NCBI GenBank assembly: GCA_040880805.1
Contig: JBBDHW010000043.1
Span: 18,561 to 82,560, forward strand
Direction: 5' to 3'
Length of the DNA stretch: 64,000 bases
Origin: Acidimicrobiia bacterium
GTDB lineage: Bacteria > Actinomycetota > Acidimicrobiia > IMCC26256 > DASPTH01
Positions 6,403 to 55,168 of the stretch are shown one piece after another; within the stretch, counting starts at the first letter, position 1, and each line of letters opens with the position of its first letter. Both the position numbers and the translations under genes were made by a program. Under the pieces are notes generated by a model. The model did no database searches, was not told the DNA's origin, and worked only from the letters and a program-made list of their open reading frames with translations.

Positions 6403-7317
6403 TCAGCGTAAGCCGGGCCAGGCGTGCAACGGCAGGCCCGGTGTGGGCATGCCGGTCCAGCAGTACACGTGGCCGGGCGCGCCCGCGTCGACGGCGTAGA
6501 GCGTGCGGAGGTCGTCACTGCCGAAGCAGCAGTTCGTGCTCACGGGATGGTCGCCGGGGCACTGGAGCTGTTCGACGGGCGTGCCGTCAGGCTCGTAGAT
6601 CGTGACGACGTGGCCTCCGCCCGCCATGTAGATGCGCCCTTCCACGTCGAGCGCGAACCCGTCCCCGACGCGCCCCGGCGCGAACATCTCGCGCTCGTCG
6701 CCGGGACGGAGACGCACGAACCCGTGGTCGAGGCCGTCGTGACCGTTCTCGACCACGATCAGTGTCGCGTCGTCGACGTCGACGCCGATGCCGTTCGCGT
6801 ACCAGAACCCGTCCGCCACGACGCGCAGCGCACCGTCGGGCGCGAGGGCCATGACGCGACTCTGCGGCGCGTCGGGCATCGGCCAACCGAACGGATCGGT
6901 GAAGAAGACCGTGCCGTCGGCCGCGACCGCGAGGTCGTTCGGCATCTGCATCGGTTCGGAGGTGAGGGAGCTGACGGACCCGTCGGGCGCGACGCGCTGG
7001 ACGCCCGACGTCGTGTACCGCGGCGGTGGCGGGTTGTCGAAGAACGGGAACTGCGAGAGGTCGAGGCCGCCGTTCTGGGTGACGAGGAACCCGCCGTCCG
7101 CGCACAGCGCAGCGCCGTTCGCGCCGCCGCCGACGTCGGCGAGGAGCTCGCGCCGGCCCGATGCCGGCCACACGCGGTACAGGGAACCCTCCGACACGCT
7201 CGTGCACACGAGCGTGCCCTCGCTCTCACCACCACTGCCGCCGCCGCGCGCGCCTCCACTGGCGCTCGCCGGACACCACACCGGGCCCTCGCCGAACGGC
7301 GGCCCCTCGCAGATCAC
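6403..7317 (-). CDS. SMP-30/gluconolactonase-like beta-propeller hydrolase
   Basis: About 304 residues with the SMP-30/LRE layout: an EGPVW metal-ligand motif near the N-terminus, a central MPNDLAVAADGTVFFTDP, then FWYANGIGVD and DGFALDVEGRIYMAG, ending CCFGSDDLRTLYAVDAG. These enzymes hydrolyse lactones at a divalent-metal site. A low-complexity Gly/Ser stretch lies near residue 20. The start is uncertain: GTG at 7317 fits the usual short lead before EGPVW, whereas the longer frame would run into the divergent moxR gene. No operon partner. Confidence 0.8.
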   Translation of the reverse strand: MICEGPPFGEGPVWCPASASGGARGGGSGGESEGTLVCTSVSEGSLYRVWPASGRRELLADVGGGANGAALCADGGFLVTQNGGLDLSQFPFFDNPPPPRYTTSGVQRVAPDGSVSSLTSEPMQMPNDLAVAADGTVFFTDPFGWPMPDAPQSRVMALAPDGALRVVADGFWYANGIGVDVDDATLIVVENGHDGLDHGFVRLRPGDEREMFAPGRVGDGFALDVEGRIYMAGGGHVVTIYEPDGTPVEQLQCPGDHPVSTNCCFGSDDLRTLYAVDAGAPGHVYCWTGMPTPGLPLHAWPGLR

Positions 7318-47324: not shown

Positions 47325-48317
47325 CTGTCTCGCGACCTCGCCATCGACCTCGGTACCGCGAACACCCTTGTGTACGCGCGCGGGCGTGGGATCATCCTGA
47401 ACGAGCCCACCGTCATCGCGATGAACACGCGAACGCACGAAGTGCTCGCGCTCGGGCACGACGCCTGGCAGATGATCGGGCGCACACCGGGCTACATCGT
47501 GGCGGTCCGGCCGCTACGGGGTGGTGCGATCACCGATTTCGAGATCACACAGCGGCTGATTCGCATGCTCTTCCAACGCGCCGGTATCTCGCGCCTGCAA
47601 CGTGCGCGCGTGCTGATCTGCGTACCGTCGGCGATCACGCACGTGGAGCAGCGTGCGGTACTCGAGGCCGCCCGACGCGCCGGTGCGGCGCAGACCTACC
47701 TCATCGAGCAGCCCATGGCCGCCGCGATCGGCGCGTCGCTCCCGATCCACGAACCGCTCGGCAACATGGTCGTCGACATCGGCGGTGGCACCAGCGAGGT
47801 CGCGGTGATCTCGCTCGGCGGCGTGGTCGCCCTGGAGGCGGTTCGCGTGGGGTCGTTCGACATCGACGCCGCGATCCAGAGCTACGTGCGACGAGAGTAC
47901 GGCCTTGCGATCGGTGAGCGCACCGCGGAGGAGGTGAAGCTCGCGATCGGATCGGTGTTCCCTACCGAAGACGAGTACAAGGCCGAGGTGCGCGGCCGCG
48001 ATCTCATGAGCGGCATGCCCAAGACGATCGTGCTCACGCCCGAGGAGATCCGCGACGCGATCGACGAACCCATCCAGGCGATCCTCGGCGCGGTGAAGCA
48101 GGCGCTGGCGCGCACCCCCCCGGAGCTGTCGCAGGACCTCCTCGCCGAGGGCATCCACCTCGTCGGCGGCGGCGCCATGTTGCGCGGCATGGAACTCCGC
48201 ATCGAGCAGGAGACGGCCGTCCCCGCGCAACTGGTGGACCTGCCGCTCGAGACGGTCGTGCTCGGCGCCGGGCGCTGCCTCGAGTCCTTCGACCGTCTGA
48301 AGGACATGTTCATGTAG
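47325..48317 (+). CDS. mreB: Rod-shape-determining actin homologue MreB/Mbl, CTG start
   Basis: 330 residues. Actin-fold motifs: phosphate-1 DLAIDLGTANTLVYARGRG, then CVPSAITHVEQRAV, phosphate-2 VVDIGGGTSEVAVISLGG and adenosine GIHLVGGGAMLRGM. MreB filaments guide lateral wall synthesis. The conserved N-terminus (SRDLAIDLGTANT) lies upstream of any ATG, GTG or TTG; an in-frame stop at 47313 leaves only CTG at 47325, which has AGGAG (47314-47318) six bases before it. A GTG at 47370 would delete the ATP site. Confidence 0.92.
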   Translation: MSRDLAIDLGTANTLVYARGRGIILNEPTVIAMNTRTHEVLALGHDAWQMIGRTPGYIVAVRPLRGGAITDFEITQRLIRMLFQRAGISRLQRARVLICVPSAITHVEQRAVLEAARRAGAAQTYLIEQPMAAAIGASLPIHEPLGNMVVDIGGGTSEVAVISLGGVVALEAVRVGSFDIDAAIQSYVRREYGLAIGERTAEEVKLAIGSVFPTEDEYKAEVRGRDLMSGMPKTIVLTPEEIRDAIDEPIQAILGAVKQALARTPPELSQDLLAEGIHLVGGGAMLRGMELRIEQETAVPAQLVDLPLETVVLGAGRCLESFDRLKDMFM

Positions 48318-48963
48318 GGGCGCTCGATTCGCGCGCGAGATCTTCGGCGGCTTGGCGGACCTGCCAGTCCTTGTCTTCGAGCGCGAGGGTCAGCGCGGCG
48401 TCGACGTCGGGGGTGTCGAACGGCGCGAGTGCGAGCACCGCGCGACGGCGCACGGTGACGCGATCGGAGCACGCGGCGAGCACCGCGGGGAGCCCGGCAG
48501 GATCGCCGAGCGCTCCGAGCGCGGCGACGGCTGCTTCACGTGCGAGCGAGTCGCGATGGGTCTTGACGACGCGTGCCAGCACGGCCACGGCACCGGCGTC
48601 GATCGCGGACTGGCCGAGTTCGCCGAGTGCCCAGGCCGCGGCTTCCACCACCGTGACGTCGCGGTCGTCGAGCAACGGCATGAGCTCCGGAACCATCGCC
48701 GGATTCGTCGCCAGCGCTGGTGCGAGCTCTGCGGCGCGCCGCCGAACCGCCGCCGCCGGGTCCACGACCGAGGCGCGCCACCCTCGCAGCGCGTCGTCTG
48801 CACGGCCTGCCCGCACGAGCGCGCCCAAAGCGGCGGTGCGGACGCGGGGGTCGGGGTCGTCGCTGAGCGCGTGGCCCGCGAGCTCCGCAGCCTCGGCGCG
48901 GAGCGGACCCTGGTGGCCGAGCTCGGCGAGCTCGGCGGCCCGGGCAACGGGCCCGTGTGTCAC
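48310..48963 (-). CDS. HEAT-repeat protein
   Basis: 217 residues built of about six HEAT/PBS-lyase-type helical repeats (DPRVRTAALGALVRAGRADD; VTVVEAAAWALGELGQSAID; DSLAREAAVAALGALGDPAG; WQVRQAAEDLARES). Such solenoids bind other proteins; no enzymatic function is implied. The GTG start overlaps the stop of the small membrane protein gene (GTGA). Its end overlaps the mreB stop by eight bases. Confidence 0.82.
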   Translation of the reverse strand: MTHGPVARAAELAELGHQGPLRAEAAELAGHALSDDPDPRVRTAALGALVRAGRADDALRGWRASVVDPAAAVRRRAAELAPALATNPAMVPELMPLLDDRDVTVVEAAAWALGELGQSAIDAGAVAVLARVVKTHRDSLAREAAVAALGALGDPAGLPAVLAACSDRVTVRRRAVLALAPFDTPDVDAALTLALEDKDWQVRQAAEDLARESSAPT

Positions 48964-49139
48964 TGCAGCTTGCCGTTGATCGCGATCACGAGCCCGCCGA
49001 AGAGCGCGGCGAGGACCATCGCGACGAGCAGACCCGTGAGGAACACCAGTACGCCGGTGCGGACGAGTGCCCAGCCCTTGCGGGCCGTGCGCACGGCGAT
49101 GTTCGTGTTCGGGCGCGCGCTGTAGAAGCCAGGGGGCAT
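48960..49139 (-). CDS. Small membrane protein upstream of the HEAT-repeat gene
   Basis: 59 residues: a polar N-terminus (PPGFYSARPNTNIAVRTARK) and one long membrane helix or hairpin (LVFLTGLLVAMVLAALFGGL, then VIAING). ATG at 49139, stop overlapping the HEAT gene start as GTGA, which supports it as a real coupled gene. No family recognised. Confidence 0.6.
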   Translation of the reverse strand: MPPGFYSARPNTNIAVRTARKGWALVRTGVLVFLTGLLVAMVLAALFGGLVIAINGKLQ

Positions 49140-49196
49140 GGCAGGCTGGGAGTCCGGTGTTCGTGCGATGCATCCACGGTATCGGTTCGGAGTCCG

Positions 49197-50327
49197 ATGA
49201 ACTCAGCAGAAGAACCACCACCCCCGCCGCCGCCCCGGCGGGGCCGCACCATTCTCGCTGTCGCGCTCTCGGTCATCGGCGTGCTCATCGCGGTCGTGCT
49301 GATTGCCGGCTTCCTGATCCACCTCCCGTACGTGATCATCTCGAGCGGATTCGCGACGCCGCTCGACGACAAGGTCATCACCGTCGACGGCGCGCAGACC
49401 TACGACCACCGCGGCAACGTCCTGTTCCTCACCGTGCGCGTCACCACGCACGACCCCACGGTGTGGCGCGTCGTCACGAGCTGGTTCGATCCCGATCGCG
49501 AGGTCGTAAAGCGCACGACGGTGATCGGTTGTCTCTCCGACGCGGAGAACATCGCCGTCAACGCGCAGCTCATGCAACGATCGCAAGACGACGCGAAGAA
49601 CCTTGCGCTCACACATCTCGGATACACGGTCGAGGCGAGCGCGCCCGAGTTCATCGTGGCCGAAGTGTGTCCCGGGTCACCCGCGTACGGCACGTTGCGG
49701 GCGGGTGACAGCCTCCTCGCGATCGACGATCACGCGGTGACGCAACTCGCCGACGTCCGGCCGCTCGTGCAGCAGCATCGTCCCGGAGAGCCCACGAGCG
49801 TCACGTACTCGCGCGGAGGCACCACCGAGACTGCCAAGGTCGTCACCGGTCGGATTGCCAAGGAAGGGCGTGCCTGCGTCACGGCGCCCCGTAGCACGAA
49901 GGGCTCCGCGTGCCTCGGGCTGACGATGGACCCGGAGCCGTTCGTCACCTACCGGTTCCCGATCGACGTGACCATCGACACCCAGAAGGTCGGTGGCCCG
50001 TCGGCAGGGCTCGCCTTCACGCTCGCCATCATCGACGACCTCACTCCCGGCAATCTCACCGGCGGCATGCGAGTCGCCGTTACCGGCACGATCGCGAGTA
50101 ACGGAGCGATCGGTCCGGTGGGTGGCGTCGAACAGAAGGCAATCACCGCGCGGCACAACGGAGTCTCGTTGATGATCGTGCCGAAATCGGAGCTGATGGA
50201 TGCACGCAACGGCGCCGGGAACGTGCGAGTCATCGGCGTCGACACGATCGACGAGGCGCTCGCGGCGCTGCAAAGGGCCGGAGGAGCCCCGGTGCCCCCC
50301 GCGTCGCCGGTCGCGGCGCGATCATGA
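49197..50327 (+). CDS. PDZ-domain Lon-like (S16) membrane protease
   Basis: 376 residues: a Pro-rich start, one membrane helix (ILAVALSVIGVLIAVVLIAG), a PDZ domain (EVCPGSPAYGTLRAGDSLLA) and an S16 domain with Ser in VGGPSAGLAFTLAI and Lys in VGGVEQKAITARH, the Ser-Lys dyad. It has no AAA module, as in YlbL-type proteins. In Mycobacterium the orthologue lies next to UPF0182; here UPF0182 follows after one gene. ATG at 49197. Confidence 0.92.
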   Translation: MNSAEEPPPPPPPRRGRTILAVALSVIGVLIAVVLIAGFLIHLPYVIISSGFATPLDDKVITVDGAQTYDHRGNVLFLTVRVTTHDPTVWRVVTSWFDPDREVVKRTTVIGCLSDAENIAVNAQLMQRSQDDAKNLALTHLGYTVEASAPEFIVAEVCPGSPAYGTLRAGDSLLAIDDHAVTQLADVRPLVQQHRPGEPTSVTYSRGGTTETAKVVTGRIAKEGRACVTAPRSTKGSACLGLTMDPEPFVTYRFPIDVTIDTQKVGGPSAGLAFTLAIIDDLTPGNLTGGMRVAVTGTIASNGAIGPVGGVEQKAITARHNGVSLMIVPKSELMDARNGAGNVRVIGVDTIDEALAALQRAGGAPVPPASPVAARS

Positions 50328-50331
50328 CCGC

Positions 50332-52041
50332 ATGACCGACAGCTCCGGCACGCCAATGTCCCCCGCGCGCGATTCGCGCCTCACGCCGGAGGCCGTCGCC
50401 GAGCGAGGGTTCACACAGGTCAAGCACGGCTACGCGGAGTCCGAGGTGAGGGCGTTCCTTCGCATGGTCTCCGACGATCTCGGATCAATTCGGAGCCGCG
50501 AGCGCGAGCTCCTCGCCCGCGTGCAGGAGCTCGAGGACCGGCTCGCGCGCCCGGTGCAACTTCCCTCCGACCAAGACCTCATCGCCGCGCTGGGCGAGGA
50601 GACGGCCCGCGTGCTGAGCCAGGCGCGCCAAGCGGCGGCCGGCCTTCGCTCGAAGGCGGACGAGCACGCGCGCCACGTGGTGCGGGAAGCGCAGGAGTCT
50701 TCGCGAGAGCTGCGTGCGTCCACCCAGCAGGCGGTGGAGACGAAGACCCGTGAAGCGGAGGACGCAGCACGCGCGCGGGCACGGGAGATCGTGGCTGAAG
50801 CACGCGTATTGCGCGAACGTGTCCTCTCCGACCTGAACGAGCGGCGCAGCGATCTCGAGCGTCAGATCGGCGAACTGCGCGCGGGTCGCGGTCGCCTTGT
50901 CGAGGTGTACCAGGTGGTGGAACGCGCACTGCTGCAGGCGGCGCGCACGATGGCAGAGGAACCGTCGAGGCCGGGCGTGGCCATGCCCGAGGTGAGCGAA
51001 CCCGCGCCCGACGCCGCGCCCGACGCCGCGCCCGACGCAGAGACGCCGAGTGCCGAGGATGGTGGCGACGCGGATGGTGGCGACGCGGAGGGGCACGACG
51101 CCGGATTGCAGAACGCCGGATTGCAGAACGCCGGATTGCAGAACGCCGGATTGCAGAACGAGGGTCACGACGTCGGCGCGCTCTTCGAGAAACTCCGTTC
51201 GGAGGCCGGCGCGACCGACGAACCCGATGAAGGAGCAGGCGAAACCGTCGAGGTCGTCGAGACGATCGATACCACCGAGGCCGCTGCGGGCGCCACGGGC
51301 GACGACGAGACCGCGCTGTTCCCCGACGACGACGACGTGGTCGTGGCCGAACTGGCGGGCGAGCCGCTCGACGACGATCGAGCCGCGCTCGCGGCGCGCG
51401 ACGATGCACTGGACCCGATCGCCGACGATCTCGCTCACCGGGCGAAGCGCGCCGTCCAAGACGAGCAGAACGACGTCCTCGACGGCCTTCGCCGTCAGCG
51501 CGGAAAGATCGATTTCGGGAAGGTCCTGCCGGCCACCGAGGACCAGCTGAGCCGCTGGGCGCACGTGCTCCAGCCGGCGGTCGATGCCGCCTACGGAGCC
51601 GGCGCGGCCTCCATGTCCTCAGGGGCGGCCGGCGCCGCGGCTGCCGCAGTGCCGAGTGCGCTCCTCACCGAGCTCGCGACCACCGTGGTCGCGCCGCTTC
51701 GCACCCGGTTGGAGTCGTCGCTCGAGTCGATCGACGCCCGAACGCCGGCCGACGTCGAGATCGCCATCGCCCAGCGCCTCGGGGCTCGGTACCGGGAGTG
51801 GAGAGGCCAGGACCTCGAGGAGGTGCTCGGCGACGCGCTCGCGGCCGCATACGCCGGCGGCGCGTACGACGCCGCACCGGAAGGTGCCCGGTTGCGCTGG
51901 GTGCCCGCGCGGGTGGGCAAGTGCCCCGACTGTGACGACAACGCGCTCGAGCCGACCGTGCGCGGCGATCACTTCCCCACCGGGCAGTCGCACCCGCCCG
52001 CGCACCCCGGCTGTCGTTGTCTCCTCGTGCTGGCAACCTGA
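50332..52041 (+). CDS. DivIVA-domain protein with Cys/His-rich phage-head-like C-terminus
   Basis: 569 residues. Residues 14-60 are a DivIVA domain (GFTQVKHGYAESEVRAFLRM), followed by a coiled coil to about 210. An acidic, disordered middle (about 220-370) contains AGLQN repeated four times. A second folded part ends GKCPDCDDNALEP, then HPPAHPGCRCLLV; the C-x2-C and HPGCRC pattern resembles the end of phage minor head (SPP1 gp7/Mu F-like) proteins. DivIVA marks curved membrane at poles. ATG at 50332 follows the protease stop by four bases. Confidence 0.75.
   Translation: MTDSSGTPMSPARDSRLTPEAVAERGFTQVKHGYAESEVRAFLRMVSDDLGSIRSRERELLARVQELEDRLARPVQLPSDQDLIAALGEETARVLSQARQAAAGLRSKADEHARHVVREAQESSRELRASTQQAVETKTREAEDAARARAREIVAEARVLRERVLSDLNERRSDLERQIGELRAGRGRLVEVYQVVERALLQAARTMAEEPSRPGVAMPEVSEPAPDAAPDAAPDAETPSAEDGGDADGGDAEGHDAGLQNAGLQNAGLQNAGLQNEGHDVGALFEKLRSEAGATDEPDEGAGETVEVVETIDTTEAAAGATGDDETALFPDDDDVVVAELAGEPLDDDRAALAARDDALDPIADDLAHRAKRAVQDEQNDVLDGLRRQRGKIDFGKVLPATEDQLSRWAHVLQPAVDAAYGAGAASMSSGAAGAAAAAVPSALLTELATTVVAPLRTRLESSLESIDARTPADVEIAIAQRLGARYREWRGQDLEEVLGDALAAAYAGGAYDAAPEGARLRWVPARVGKCPDCDDNALEPTVRGDHFPTGQSHPPAHPGCRCLLVLAT
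51100..51159 (+). repeat. Four tandem 15-bp repeats in the DivIVA-domain gene
   Basis: GCCGGATTGCAGAAC occurs four times without change at 51100, 51115, 51130 and 51145, encoding AGLQN each time. Exact identity indicates recent expansion. It is preceded by shorter Pro-Asp-Ala-Ala repeats near 51007. Confidence 0.92.
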
Positions 52042-52204: not shown

Positions 52205-55168
52205 ATGCGCGTCCCCACGGCAGAGCCCCGACGCCGATTTCGCCTCCGTGGCTGGATCATCGGCTTGGTTGTGTTGTTCCTCGTGCTGGCGTTCAGCCTG
52301 CGCGGCCTGGCGGGCTTCTACACCGATTTTCTCTGGTTCGACTCCCTGGGGCAGGGCAGCACGTGGAGCAGCCTCCTCGCGGCGAAGGTCGCTCCGGCGC
52401 TCGTCTTCACAGTCGCGTTCTTCGTGATCATGTGGGTGAACCTGGTCATCGCCGACCGGTTGGCACCCAAGTACCGGTCGATGGGTCCCGAAGACGAGCT
52501 CATCGCGCGCTACCAGCAAGTCGCGGGGCCGTACACGGGCCGGATCCGCGTGGGTGTGTCGCTCTTCTTCGCGCTGATCGCGGGCATCGGCGTGTCCTCG
52601 CAGTGGCGGCAGTGGGTGCTCTTCACGCACAGCCAGAAGTTCGGCATGAAAGACCCGCAATTCCACAAGGACATCGGCTTCTACGTCTTCCAGCTCCCGT
52701 TCCTCAAGTTCATCGCCGAGTGGCTCTTCGCGGGTCTGGTGATCGTGCTCATCGTTGCCGCCGTCGCGCACTACCTCAACGGTGGGATCCGGTTCCAGAG
52801 CCCGTTCCAGCGCGTCACGCCGCAGGTCAAGGCGCACTTGTCGGTGATCCTCGCGGTGATGGCGCTCGTCAAGACCGCGCAGTACTACCTCGGCCGCTTC
52901 GAGCTCGACTTCTCCACCCGCGGCGTGGTCGAAGGGGCGAGCTACACCGATGTCAAGGCGCAGCTCCCCGCGCTCAATCTGCTGATCGTCATCTCGATCT
53001 TCGCGGCGGGGCTGTTCATCTGGAACATCCAGCGTCGCGGCTGGGTACTGCCGATCATCGCGGTGGGCCTGTGGGGCTTCGTCTCGATCGTGATCGGCAC
53101 GATCTACCCGGCGCTCATCCAGCAGTTCAAGGTCGGCCCGAACGAGTTCCAGACCGAAGCTCCCTACATCGAGCGCAACATCCGCGCGACGCGGAACGCG
53201 TTCGTGCTCGACGAGGTGAAGCCCGGCGACTTCAACTTCAAGACCTTCGGCCAGCTTCCGACCGCAGAGGCGAACGCGATCGTCGACAGCAACAAGGGAA
53301 CGATCGACAACGCCCGGTTGTGGGACCCGGGGATCATCCAGGAGACGTACAACTCGCTCCAGAACCTCCAGACCTACTACCAGATCGGCGACGTCGACGT
53401 CGACCGATACCTCGTGGACAACGAGGTCCGTCAGGTGTTGATCTCGGCGCGCGGCCTCAACAGCGCCGACCTGCCGAGCCAGTCGTTCGTGAACCGCCAC
53501 ATCATCTACACGCACGGGTACGGCGTGGTCGCGTCGCCGAGCAATTCCGCGACGGCTGACGGCTCCCCCACGTACTACCTGGAGAACGTCCCCACCGAGA
53601 CCGTCCCGAATGGGATCAAGCTCAGCGACGGCGAGGCTTCCCAGATCTACTTTGCCGAGAACCTCGGCAGCTACGTGCTGGTGGACGCGAAGTCGAAGGA
53701 GTTCAATTATCAGACGCCGGGGAAGACCGACCAGTTCACGCGCTACCGGGGGAAAGACGGCGTGGAGCTGTCGAACTTCGTGCGTCGCGCCGCGTTCGCG
53801 CTCCGGTTCGGCAGCATCGATCCGCTGATCTCCGGGCAGGTCACGTCGAACACGAGAGTGCTCATGGAGCGCGACATCCGCGCCCGGGTCGAGAAGCTCG
53901 CGCCGTTCCTGCGCTACGACGGCGATCCGTATCCCGTAGCGATGGGGACGCACACGATCTGGGTCCTCGACGGGTACACCACCACCGACATGTACCCGTA
54001 CGCGCAGTCCACGAGCGGCGAGCAGGGTCTCGCAACCGACTTCAACTATGTGCGCAACTCCGTGAAGGCGACGGTCGACGCGTACGAGGGCACGGTCACC
54101 TTCTACGTGTTCGACAACAAGGACCCGATCATCAAGGCGTGGCGCAGCGCTTTCCCCGACCTGTTCACCGACGCGTCGAGAATGTCGCCCGAGCTCCGCG
54201 CGCATCTGCGCTACCCGGAGGACCTGTTCAAGGTTCAGTCGAACATGTTCGGCCGTTACCACGTCACCGAACCACGCCGCTTCTACGACGGCAGCGCGAA
54301 GTGGCTCGTGTCGCCCGACCCGGGATCGGGGCCGGTGTCGAGCTCCGACTTCGGTTCGTTGATCGACTCTGCGAGCTCCGATACCAGCGCGAACGCGCAG
54401 CCGCAGGCGGCCACGTCCACCGGGCGGCGCATCGATCCGTACTACCTCTATCTCAAGTTGCCGAAGGAAGAATCTGAGCACTTCATCGTCATCACGCCCT
54501 TTGTGCCCGTGTCGAGCAACAACCGCGAGACGCGACTCGTGTCGTTCCTCACCGCGAACTCCGATCCCGGTCACTACGGCGAGATGCGCGCGTTCACGAT
54601 GCCTCAGGGGGAGACGGTCAAGGGGCCGGTCCAGGTCAACAGCGAGATGAACCGCGCGAGCCCGATCTCCCAGGCCGTCACCCTCTTGAACCAGCAGGGC
54701 TCACGCGTCACGCAAGGGAGCCTCCAGCTCATACCCGTGGGCAACTCGCTCCTCTACGTGCGGCCGTTCTACGCCCAGGGGCGTGGGAGCGGGAGCTTCC
54801 CGCAGTTCCAGTTCGTGGCCGTGTTCACCCAAGACTTCGGGCAGGCCGTCTGCGCGCAGAACGTGAACGACGCGCTCAACCAGCTCTTCGGGCAGGCCGA
54901 CCGCTCGGCCTCGTGCAACGTCGCGATCACCGGCGTTCAACCCGGCACGCCGACTTCCACGACCACCACCGCGCCTCCGGGGACCGTCACCACGACCCCC
55001 GGACCCACCACGACGCTTCCCGCTTCCACCCAGGAGTTGATCGCCCTGGCCAGCAAGACCTACGGCGACGCCCAGGACGCCCTCAAGGCCGGCGATTTCG
55101 CCCGCTATGCGACGCTGATCACACAGCTCGGCGACATCCTGGCAAAGCTCGACGCGGCCACCCGGTAG
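52205..55168 (+). CDS. UPF0182 family large membrane protein
   Basis: 987 residues. The N-terminal 320 residues have about seven membrane helices (WIIGLVVLFLVLAFSLRGLA; VAPALVFTVAFFVIMWVNLV; LLIVISIFAAGLFIW; VLPIIAVGLWGFVSIVIGTI). A large extracytoplasmic domain follows with PNEFQTEAPYIERNIRATRN, TRYRGKDGVELSNFVRRAAF and LRYPEDLFKVQSNMFGRYH. The C-terminus has a Thr/Pro-rich linker and a short helical tail. The family is widespread in actinobacteria with no proven function. Confidence 0.93.
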   Translation: MRVPTAEPRRRFRLRGWIIGLVVLFLVLAFSLRGLAGFYTDFLWFDSLGQGSTWSSLLAAKVAPALVFTVAFFVIMWVNLVIADRLAPKYRSMGPEDELIARYQQVAGPYTGRIRVGVSLFFALIAGIGVSSQWRQWVLFTHSQKFGMKDPQFHKDIGFYVFQLPFLKFIAEWLFAGLVIVLIVAAVAHYLNGGIRFQSPFQRVTPQVKAHLSVILAVMALVKTAQYYLGRFELDFSTRGVVEGASYTDVKAQLPALNLLIVISIFAAGLFIWNIQRRGWVLPIIAVGLWGFVSIVIGTIYPALIQQFKVGPNEFQTEAPYIERNIRATRNAFVLDEVKPGDFNFKTFGQLPTAEANAIVDSNKGTIDNARLWDPGIIQETYNSLQNLQTYYQIGDVDVDRYLVDNEVRQVLISARGLNSADLPSQSFVNRHIIYTHGYGVVASPSNSATADGSPTYYLENVPTETVPNGIKLSDGEASQIYFAENLGSYVLVDAKSKEFNYQTPGKTDQFTRYRGKDGVELSNFVRRAAFALRFGSIDPLISGQVTSNTRVLMERDIRARVEKLAPFLRYDGDPYPVAMGTHTIWVLDGYTTTDMYPYAQSTSGEQGLATDFNYVRNSVKATVDAYEGTVTFYVFDNKDPIIKAWRSAFPDLFTDASRMSPELRAHLRYPEDLFKVQSNMFGRYHVTEPRRFYDGSAKWLVSPDPGSGPVSSSDFGSLIDSASSDTSANAQPQAATSTGRRIDPYYLYLKLPKEESEHFIVITPFVPVSSNNRETRLVSFLTANSDPGHYGEMRAFTMPQGETVKGPVQVNSEMNRASPISQAVTLLNQQGSRVTQGSLQLIPVGNSLLYVRPFYAQGRGSGSFPQFQFVAVFTQDFGQAVCAQNVNDALNQLFGQADRSASCNVAITGVQPGTPTSTTTTAPPGTVTTTPGPTTTLPASTQELIALASKTYGDAQDALKAGDFARYATLITQLGDILAKLDAATR

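Follow-up and report, generated by a model that had tools for sequence, protein, structure and literature searches.

A DivIVA-domain protein of Acidimicrobiia with a C-terminal relative of phage minor head proteins, encoded next to UPF0182

The 64,000-nucleotide stretch of Acidimicrobiia DNA that was analysed (the window) contains a gene for a protein in which an N-terminal DivIVA domain is joined, through a helical stretch and an acidic linker, to a C-terminal domain (CTD) whose homology to the minor head (MuF/PF04233) proteins of tailed phages is well supported. This architecture is new within the DivIVA family; a literature search found no paper on a pairing of DivIVA with a MuF domain, nor anything on DivIVA in Acidimicrobiia or on DivIVA with PF04233 or UPF0182. 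The DivIVA-MuF protein looks like a captured part of a virus that has been reused in the envelope or division machinery of the cell.

The reading frame of the gene is open throughout its 569 codons (Table 1). The DivIVA domain named in the preliminary description was confirmed by a match to Pfam family PF05103 (E 1.3e-14, 54.7 bits, against a curated cut-off of 28 bits) and by a match above the cut-off to the NCBIfam DivIVA domain TIGR03544 (3.2e-6). The PF05103 match stops at residue 137, and residues 138-205 have weak matches to many coiled-coil families. The linker is of low complexity (pI 4.05, charge -35.7), with NAGLQ repeats starting at residues 261, 266 and 271, and the CTD comprises 213 residues, ending in CPDC-x23-HPGCRC (tail PPAHPGCRC); the repeat region and the C-x2-C and HPGCRC ending described earlier were thus both found. 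No hydrophobic transmembrane segments are present in the DivIVA-MuF protein, versus seven in UPF0182.

Table 1. Features of the DivIVA-MuF locus, with positions in the window
Feature	Position	Strand	Basis
DivIVA - helical - acidic linker - MuF-like gene	50332..52041	+	569 aa ORF; homologues
DivIVA domain, aa 17-137	50380..50742	+	PF05103 and TIGR03544 matches
Charged helical stretch (predicted), likely coiled coil, aa 138-205	50743..50946	+	composition
Ala/Asp/Glu/Gly/Pro-rich acidic linker, aa 206-356	50947..51399	+	composition
(D/N)AGLQ tandem pentapeptide repeats, 15-bp units, within linker	51097..51159	+	sequence
MuF-like domain helical core, aa 357-520, conserved KR-x3-(D)-x-QN-x2-L-x3-R	51400..51891	+	alignments, AlphaFold helices
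Cys/His tail C531-x2-C534...H558-x2-C561-x-C563, putative metal site	51922..52020	+	alignment, profile comparisons
UPF0182 (PF03699), 7 hydrophobic TM segments, directly downstream	52205..55168	+	family match, synteny
PDZ + Lon-type (S16) protease, YlbL-like, upstream	48957..50327	+	stop 5 nt before ATG 50332
HEAT-repeat protein, conserved neighbour	48310..49221	-	neighbourhood comparison
MreB, two genes upstream of protease-DivIVA-UPF0182 run	47370..48317	+	PF06723 3.9e-119

Single-sequence searches of Pfam and the PDB with the CTD gave nothing useful, and no relative emerged from IMG/VR in a pattern-plus-tblastn scan. When 25 CTDs were searched singly against PHROG families, 23 matched phrog_2662 (portal protein; best 3.2e-9), with the C-terminal end of which (profile positions 530-706 of 717) the window CTD aligns; 24 matched phrog_16493 (head maturation protease; best 6.7e-6); and 22, 20 and 20 matched minor-head or head-morphogenesis families. 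The single match at E<=1 in a phage collection was a Streptococcus phage protein that belongs to PF04233 (1.6e-12) and is encoded directly after the portal gene. Comparison by hhalign of the CTDs with ten aligned phage minor head (PF04233) proteins gave Prob 93.7 and E 2e-7 over 91 columns. A broad CTD profile built from 119 bacterial rows was searched against the ORFs encoded in 12 loci of phages or phage-plasmids and 534 reversed or shuffled decoys: it matched the HJTV-4 head-morphogenesis protein over nearly the whole length of the CTD profile (E 1.5e-5, positions 19-201 of 201) and two further phage head proteins (E 2.1e-5 and 4.7e-5), and none of the 534 decoys. The homologue L102, which comes from another family of the phylum and has a DivIVA domain (3e-13), matches PF04233 itself at 1.2e-3 (profile positions 3-112 of 112) and the capsid maturation protease of Arthrobacter phage Salgado at 2e-3. 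The proteins behind weak plasmid matches of the CTD belong to the head modules of Streptomyces phage-plasmids; they match the same PHROG families and share with the CTD, in order, the elements W-x-P...CPxC...FPxG...PPxHPxCRC. Two Streptomyces plasmids of 91-93 kb, which are probably phage-plasmids, encode an unannotated MuF-like protein within phage head modules (L140:5398-6285 and L141:2395-3288).

The Pfam search returned no PF04233 match for the window protein at the curated cut-off of 29.6 bits; among 75 homologues two matched at E<=1e-3 (best 5.9e-5), and L102 scored 20.0 bits, below the cut-off. The window protein is therefore a distant relative of PF04233 and not a member. Thus, the phage-head resemblance proposed for the tail in the preliminary description holds as homology, on the evidence of PHROG, hhalign, the broad profile and the predicted structure, but does not extend to passing the PF04233 cut-off.

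The AlphaFold model of the CTD (pLDDT 88.9, pTM 0.87) consists of four long helices (residues 5-32, 46-72, 86-109 and 116-158) followed by a short strand-helix-strand tail. A Foldseek search of BFVD with this model gave a best E of 1.3e-4 and TM values up to 0.74; as BFVD holds viral proteins only, the informative point is not the viral nature of the matches but which viral family they represent, and most of the named top matches are head-morphogenesis, MuF, minor capsid or portal-fused phage proteins. The PDB gave no match to the CTD below E 0.6 and, because no solved structure matches, neither supports nor refutes a MuF fold. The alternative to phage ancestry envisaged at the outset, an unrelated zinc ribbon, is not what was predicted: the similarity found was to phage head proteins, and the original reading is not refuted.

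Conservation of the CTD is far beyond chance. An alignment of 25 homologues (36-55% identity) has 27 invariant columns, which include (in CTD numbering) C175, D177, D179-E184, F192-G195, P200, H202, G204, C205 and C207, as well as the KR-x3-D-x-QN-x2-L-x3-R motif of the first helix. The gene is present, essentially in single copy, in 56 of 61 near relatives (28 of the 29 high-quality genomes). The sole carrier with a match in more than one piece is G057, in which the match is split in two by a frameshift within the Cys/His tail (L023, JAOSJK010000001.1, about 6500-6620) that may be either a sequencing error or real decay. Across wider samples the CTD was detected in 164 of 246 Acidimicrobiia genomes and in 58 of 396 genomes of the phylum, 16 of the latter outside Acidimicrobiia; a species-level genome collection yielded 26 CTD-encoding loci, most of them labelled Acidimicrobiia or Actinomycetota. 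A DivIVA domain was detected in 64 of 75 homologues.

The gene stands in a housekeeping order of MoaE, MreB, HEAT, PDZ-Lon protease, DivIVA-MuF, UPF0182 and SufB, and portal and terminase genes are not among its neighbours in the window. Fetched loci contained 92 distinct CTD ORFs, 91 of them assessable for adjacency to UPF0182. In 89 of these, UPF0182 follows immediately downstream in the same orientation, with a gap within 250 nt in 88 cases. The frameshifted copy in L023, for which the measured gap is distorted, accounts for one of the remaining two. In L117 (G583:C140) the CTD gene lies apart from UPF0182, and the UPF0182 gene of the same genome is on another contig. The PDZ-Lon protease gene adjoins the DivIVA-MuF gene in most Acidimicrobiia loci, whereas in other families of the phylum (L098-L109) it is absent from the fetched stretch or several kilobases away, with UPF0182 still adjacent. 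Thus, the closeness to mreB noted previously is real, but HEAT-repeat and PDZ-Lon genes lie between, and the constant gene partner is UPF0182, not mreB. UPF0182 does not need the CTD, since it is present in 236 of the 246 Acidimicrobiia genomes as against 164 for the CTD. Evolutionary distances of the CTD and UPF0182 co-vary (Mantel r 0.71, reached in 0 of 2000 permutations), as expected under vertical inheritance; the correlation reflects shared vertical history and is by itself no proof of contact between the two proteins. One genome (G233) has two UPF0182 copies (on C19 and C23), only one of which adjoins the DivIVA-MuF gene.

Like DivIVA/Wag31 (PF05103), the window protein is a cytosolic actinobacterial protein with an N-terminal DivIVA domain and a predicted helical stretch; unlike DivIVA/Wag31, it adds an acidic linker and a MuF-like domain, and its gene adjoins UPF0182 rather than lying in the dcw region. 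It is a second DivIVA protein of its genome, because another DivIVA gene adjoins a probable sepF gene (assigned from its sequence and not by family search). With the MuF/Phage_Mu_F proteins (PF04233; SPP1 gp7, TP901-1 minor head protein) the CTD shares a helical domain ending C..C...PPxHPxCRC, similar in profile and in predicted fold, but it is chromosomal, situated behind DivIVA and not beside portal or terminase genes, carries the extra KR..D.QN motif, and is acidic (pI 4.6-6.0 in all 25 CTDs, versus pI 8.7-9.4 in 8 of the 10 phage proteins). The first tail cysteine is invariant in the CTDs and the second is often alanine, whereas in phage MuF proteins it is the second that is invariant. An extra tail cysteine occurs in 9 of 15 CTDs with alanine at C178, versus 4 of 37 others (Fisher p 5.6e-4, for sequences that are not independent), a pattern consistent with relocation of a metal ligand; the other 6 of the 15 have no extra tail cysteine. 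MuF polymorphic toxins are likewise fusions built on a MuF domain, but there MuF precedes a C-terminal toxin, in temperate phages (PMC5576092); here the MuF-like domain ends a cell scaffold, and Pfam and NCBIfam searches found no toxin domain in the window protein. The corynebacterial Glp-GlpR system with Wag31 is comparable in that a repurposed protein and its cognate membrane receptor are tied to the DivIVA/Wag31 machinery, although its domains are unrelated to those of DivIVA-MuF (PMC10522489).

Because all 25 CTDs are acidic and most of the phage proteins basic, a protein is a likelier partner of the CTD than DNA. The UPF0182 protein of M. tuberculosis is Rv3193c. A TnSeq study found that Rv3193c, together with pbpA, rodA and perM, interacts genetically with the divisome protein Rv0954 (PMC8093794). 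From this link, the likelier protein partner and the seven transmembrane segments of UPF0182, we draw a model to which we give a slight preference overall: that the protein is a clade-specific second DivIVA scaffold, the MuF-derived domain of which docks on UPF0182 at the pole or septum. The N-terminal DivIVA domain and helical stretch would target the protein to curved membrane at the pole or septum and oligomerise it there, and the long acidic linker would present the C-terminal MuF-homologous domain with its putative Cys/His metal site. To judge from gene order and from analogy with phage, in which MuF proteins dock on the portal (SPP1 gp7; PMC5576092), the CTD may dock on its neighbour UPF0182 from the cytosolic side, and perhaps also on the PDZ-Lon protease; the portal-ring docking of the phage ancestor would then have given the cell a fold for reuse as a docking module. 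By holding UPF0182 at the pole or septum, the CTD would have a role in envelope growth or division. Since MuF occurs widely among tailed phages (PMC5576092) and the CTD was detected within the sampled phylum in Acidimicrobiia and a few other families, transfer from phage to cell appears to be the likelier direction. The fuller history, in which a portal-docking module was captured from phage in deep-branching actinobacteria, fused to DivIVA and put to positioning UPF0182 at the pole or septum, is more tentative, and we regard it as possible rather than probable. If it is true, a contact at the phage capsid vertex has been converted into one of envelope growth, and the protein would be a clear example of a relative of a tailed-phage head domain that has joined the core cellular genes throughout a bacterial class. 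It would also open a way to study UPF0182, an uncharacterised but conserved family of membrane proteins that mycobacteria and corynebacteria have as well.

Most of the sequence signal of the CTD lies in its last 45 or so residues, which might suggest convergence, whereby a helical domain of cellular origin would carry a zinc knuckle that looks like the MuF tail without being related to it. The PHROG head matches vanish once the Cys/His tail is removed, and the model of the tail-less CTD (pLDDT 93) has a best Foldseek E of 0.1; the main basis for MuF homology is thus the tail, together with profile alignments across the entire domain, and the helical core adds weaker support. Alone, the helical part is weakly phage-like: several of the phage targets found with the full CTD are still among the best matches (probability 0.97-1.00, TM 0.53-0.70). 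These core matches, the silence of the decoys, the ordered likeness to the Streptomyces head-module proteins and the whole-domain alignments with PF04233 (L102) and with the head protein of a haloarchaeal virus make convergence unlikely. Considered by itself, MuF homology would also fit a prophage remnant in decay that happened to fuse with a DivIVA gene, but class-wide single copy, fixed synteny and the invariant columns refute this, and the housekeeping neighbours and the lack of a PF04233 match in the genome point the same way; this reading was rejected as extremely improbable.

Accepting homology, the CTD could instead anchor the chromosome at the pole or septum through DNA binding of the SPP1 gp7 type: a reference title within PMC5576092 presents gp7 as a DNA-binding protein that the portal targets, and gp7 is reported to bind DNA (PMC4493119). 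The invariant KR...R motif in the first helix would suit such a tether, but the acidity of every CTD, unlike the basic phage proteins, disfavours it, and what is constantly linked is a membrane-protein gene rather than genes of chromosome segregation; we give it little credence. About as improbable is that the protein serves as an adaptor that positions not UPF0182 but the upstream PDZ-Lon (YlbL-type) protease: the 5-nt spacing of the two genes in the window and their adjacency in most Acidimicrobiia loci would agree with this, but the loci of other families retain UPF0182 where the protease is distant or absent, and the protease domains should lie on the outer side of the membrane, away from a cytosolic scaffold. 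The docking of the CTD on UPF0182 at the pole or septum remains the reading that we prefer.

Several loci depart from the common arrangement, and these losses, like the presence of UPF0182 in genomes in which no CTD was detected, weigh against the docking model. In L006, L007 and L008 a MuF-like domain without a DivIVA domain adjoins UPF0182, and L130:577-1575 encodes a DivIVA domain and helical stretch without a MuF-like domain, yet directly 5' of UPF0182. The Cys/His tail is lost in L110, L113, L114, L115 and L117, and the gene between protease and UPF0182 has seemingly been lost altogether in L122, L131 and L132. The locus L018 (CAMDSG010000075.1), titled Bifidobacterium breve, hardly differs from the IMCC26256 locus (L020) and is probably from a mislabelled metagenome-assembled genome.
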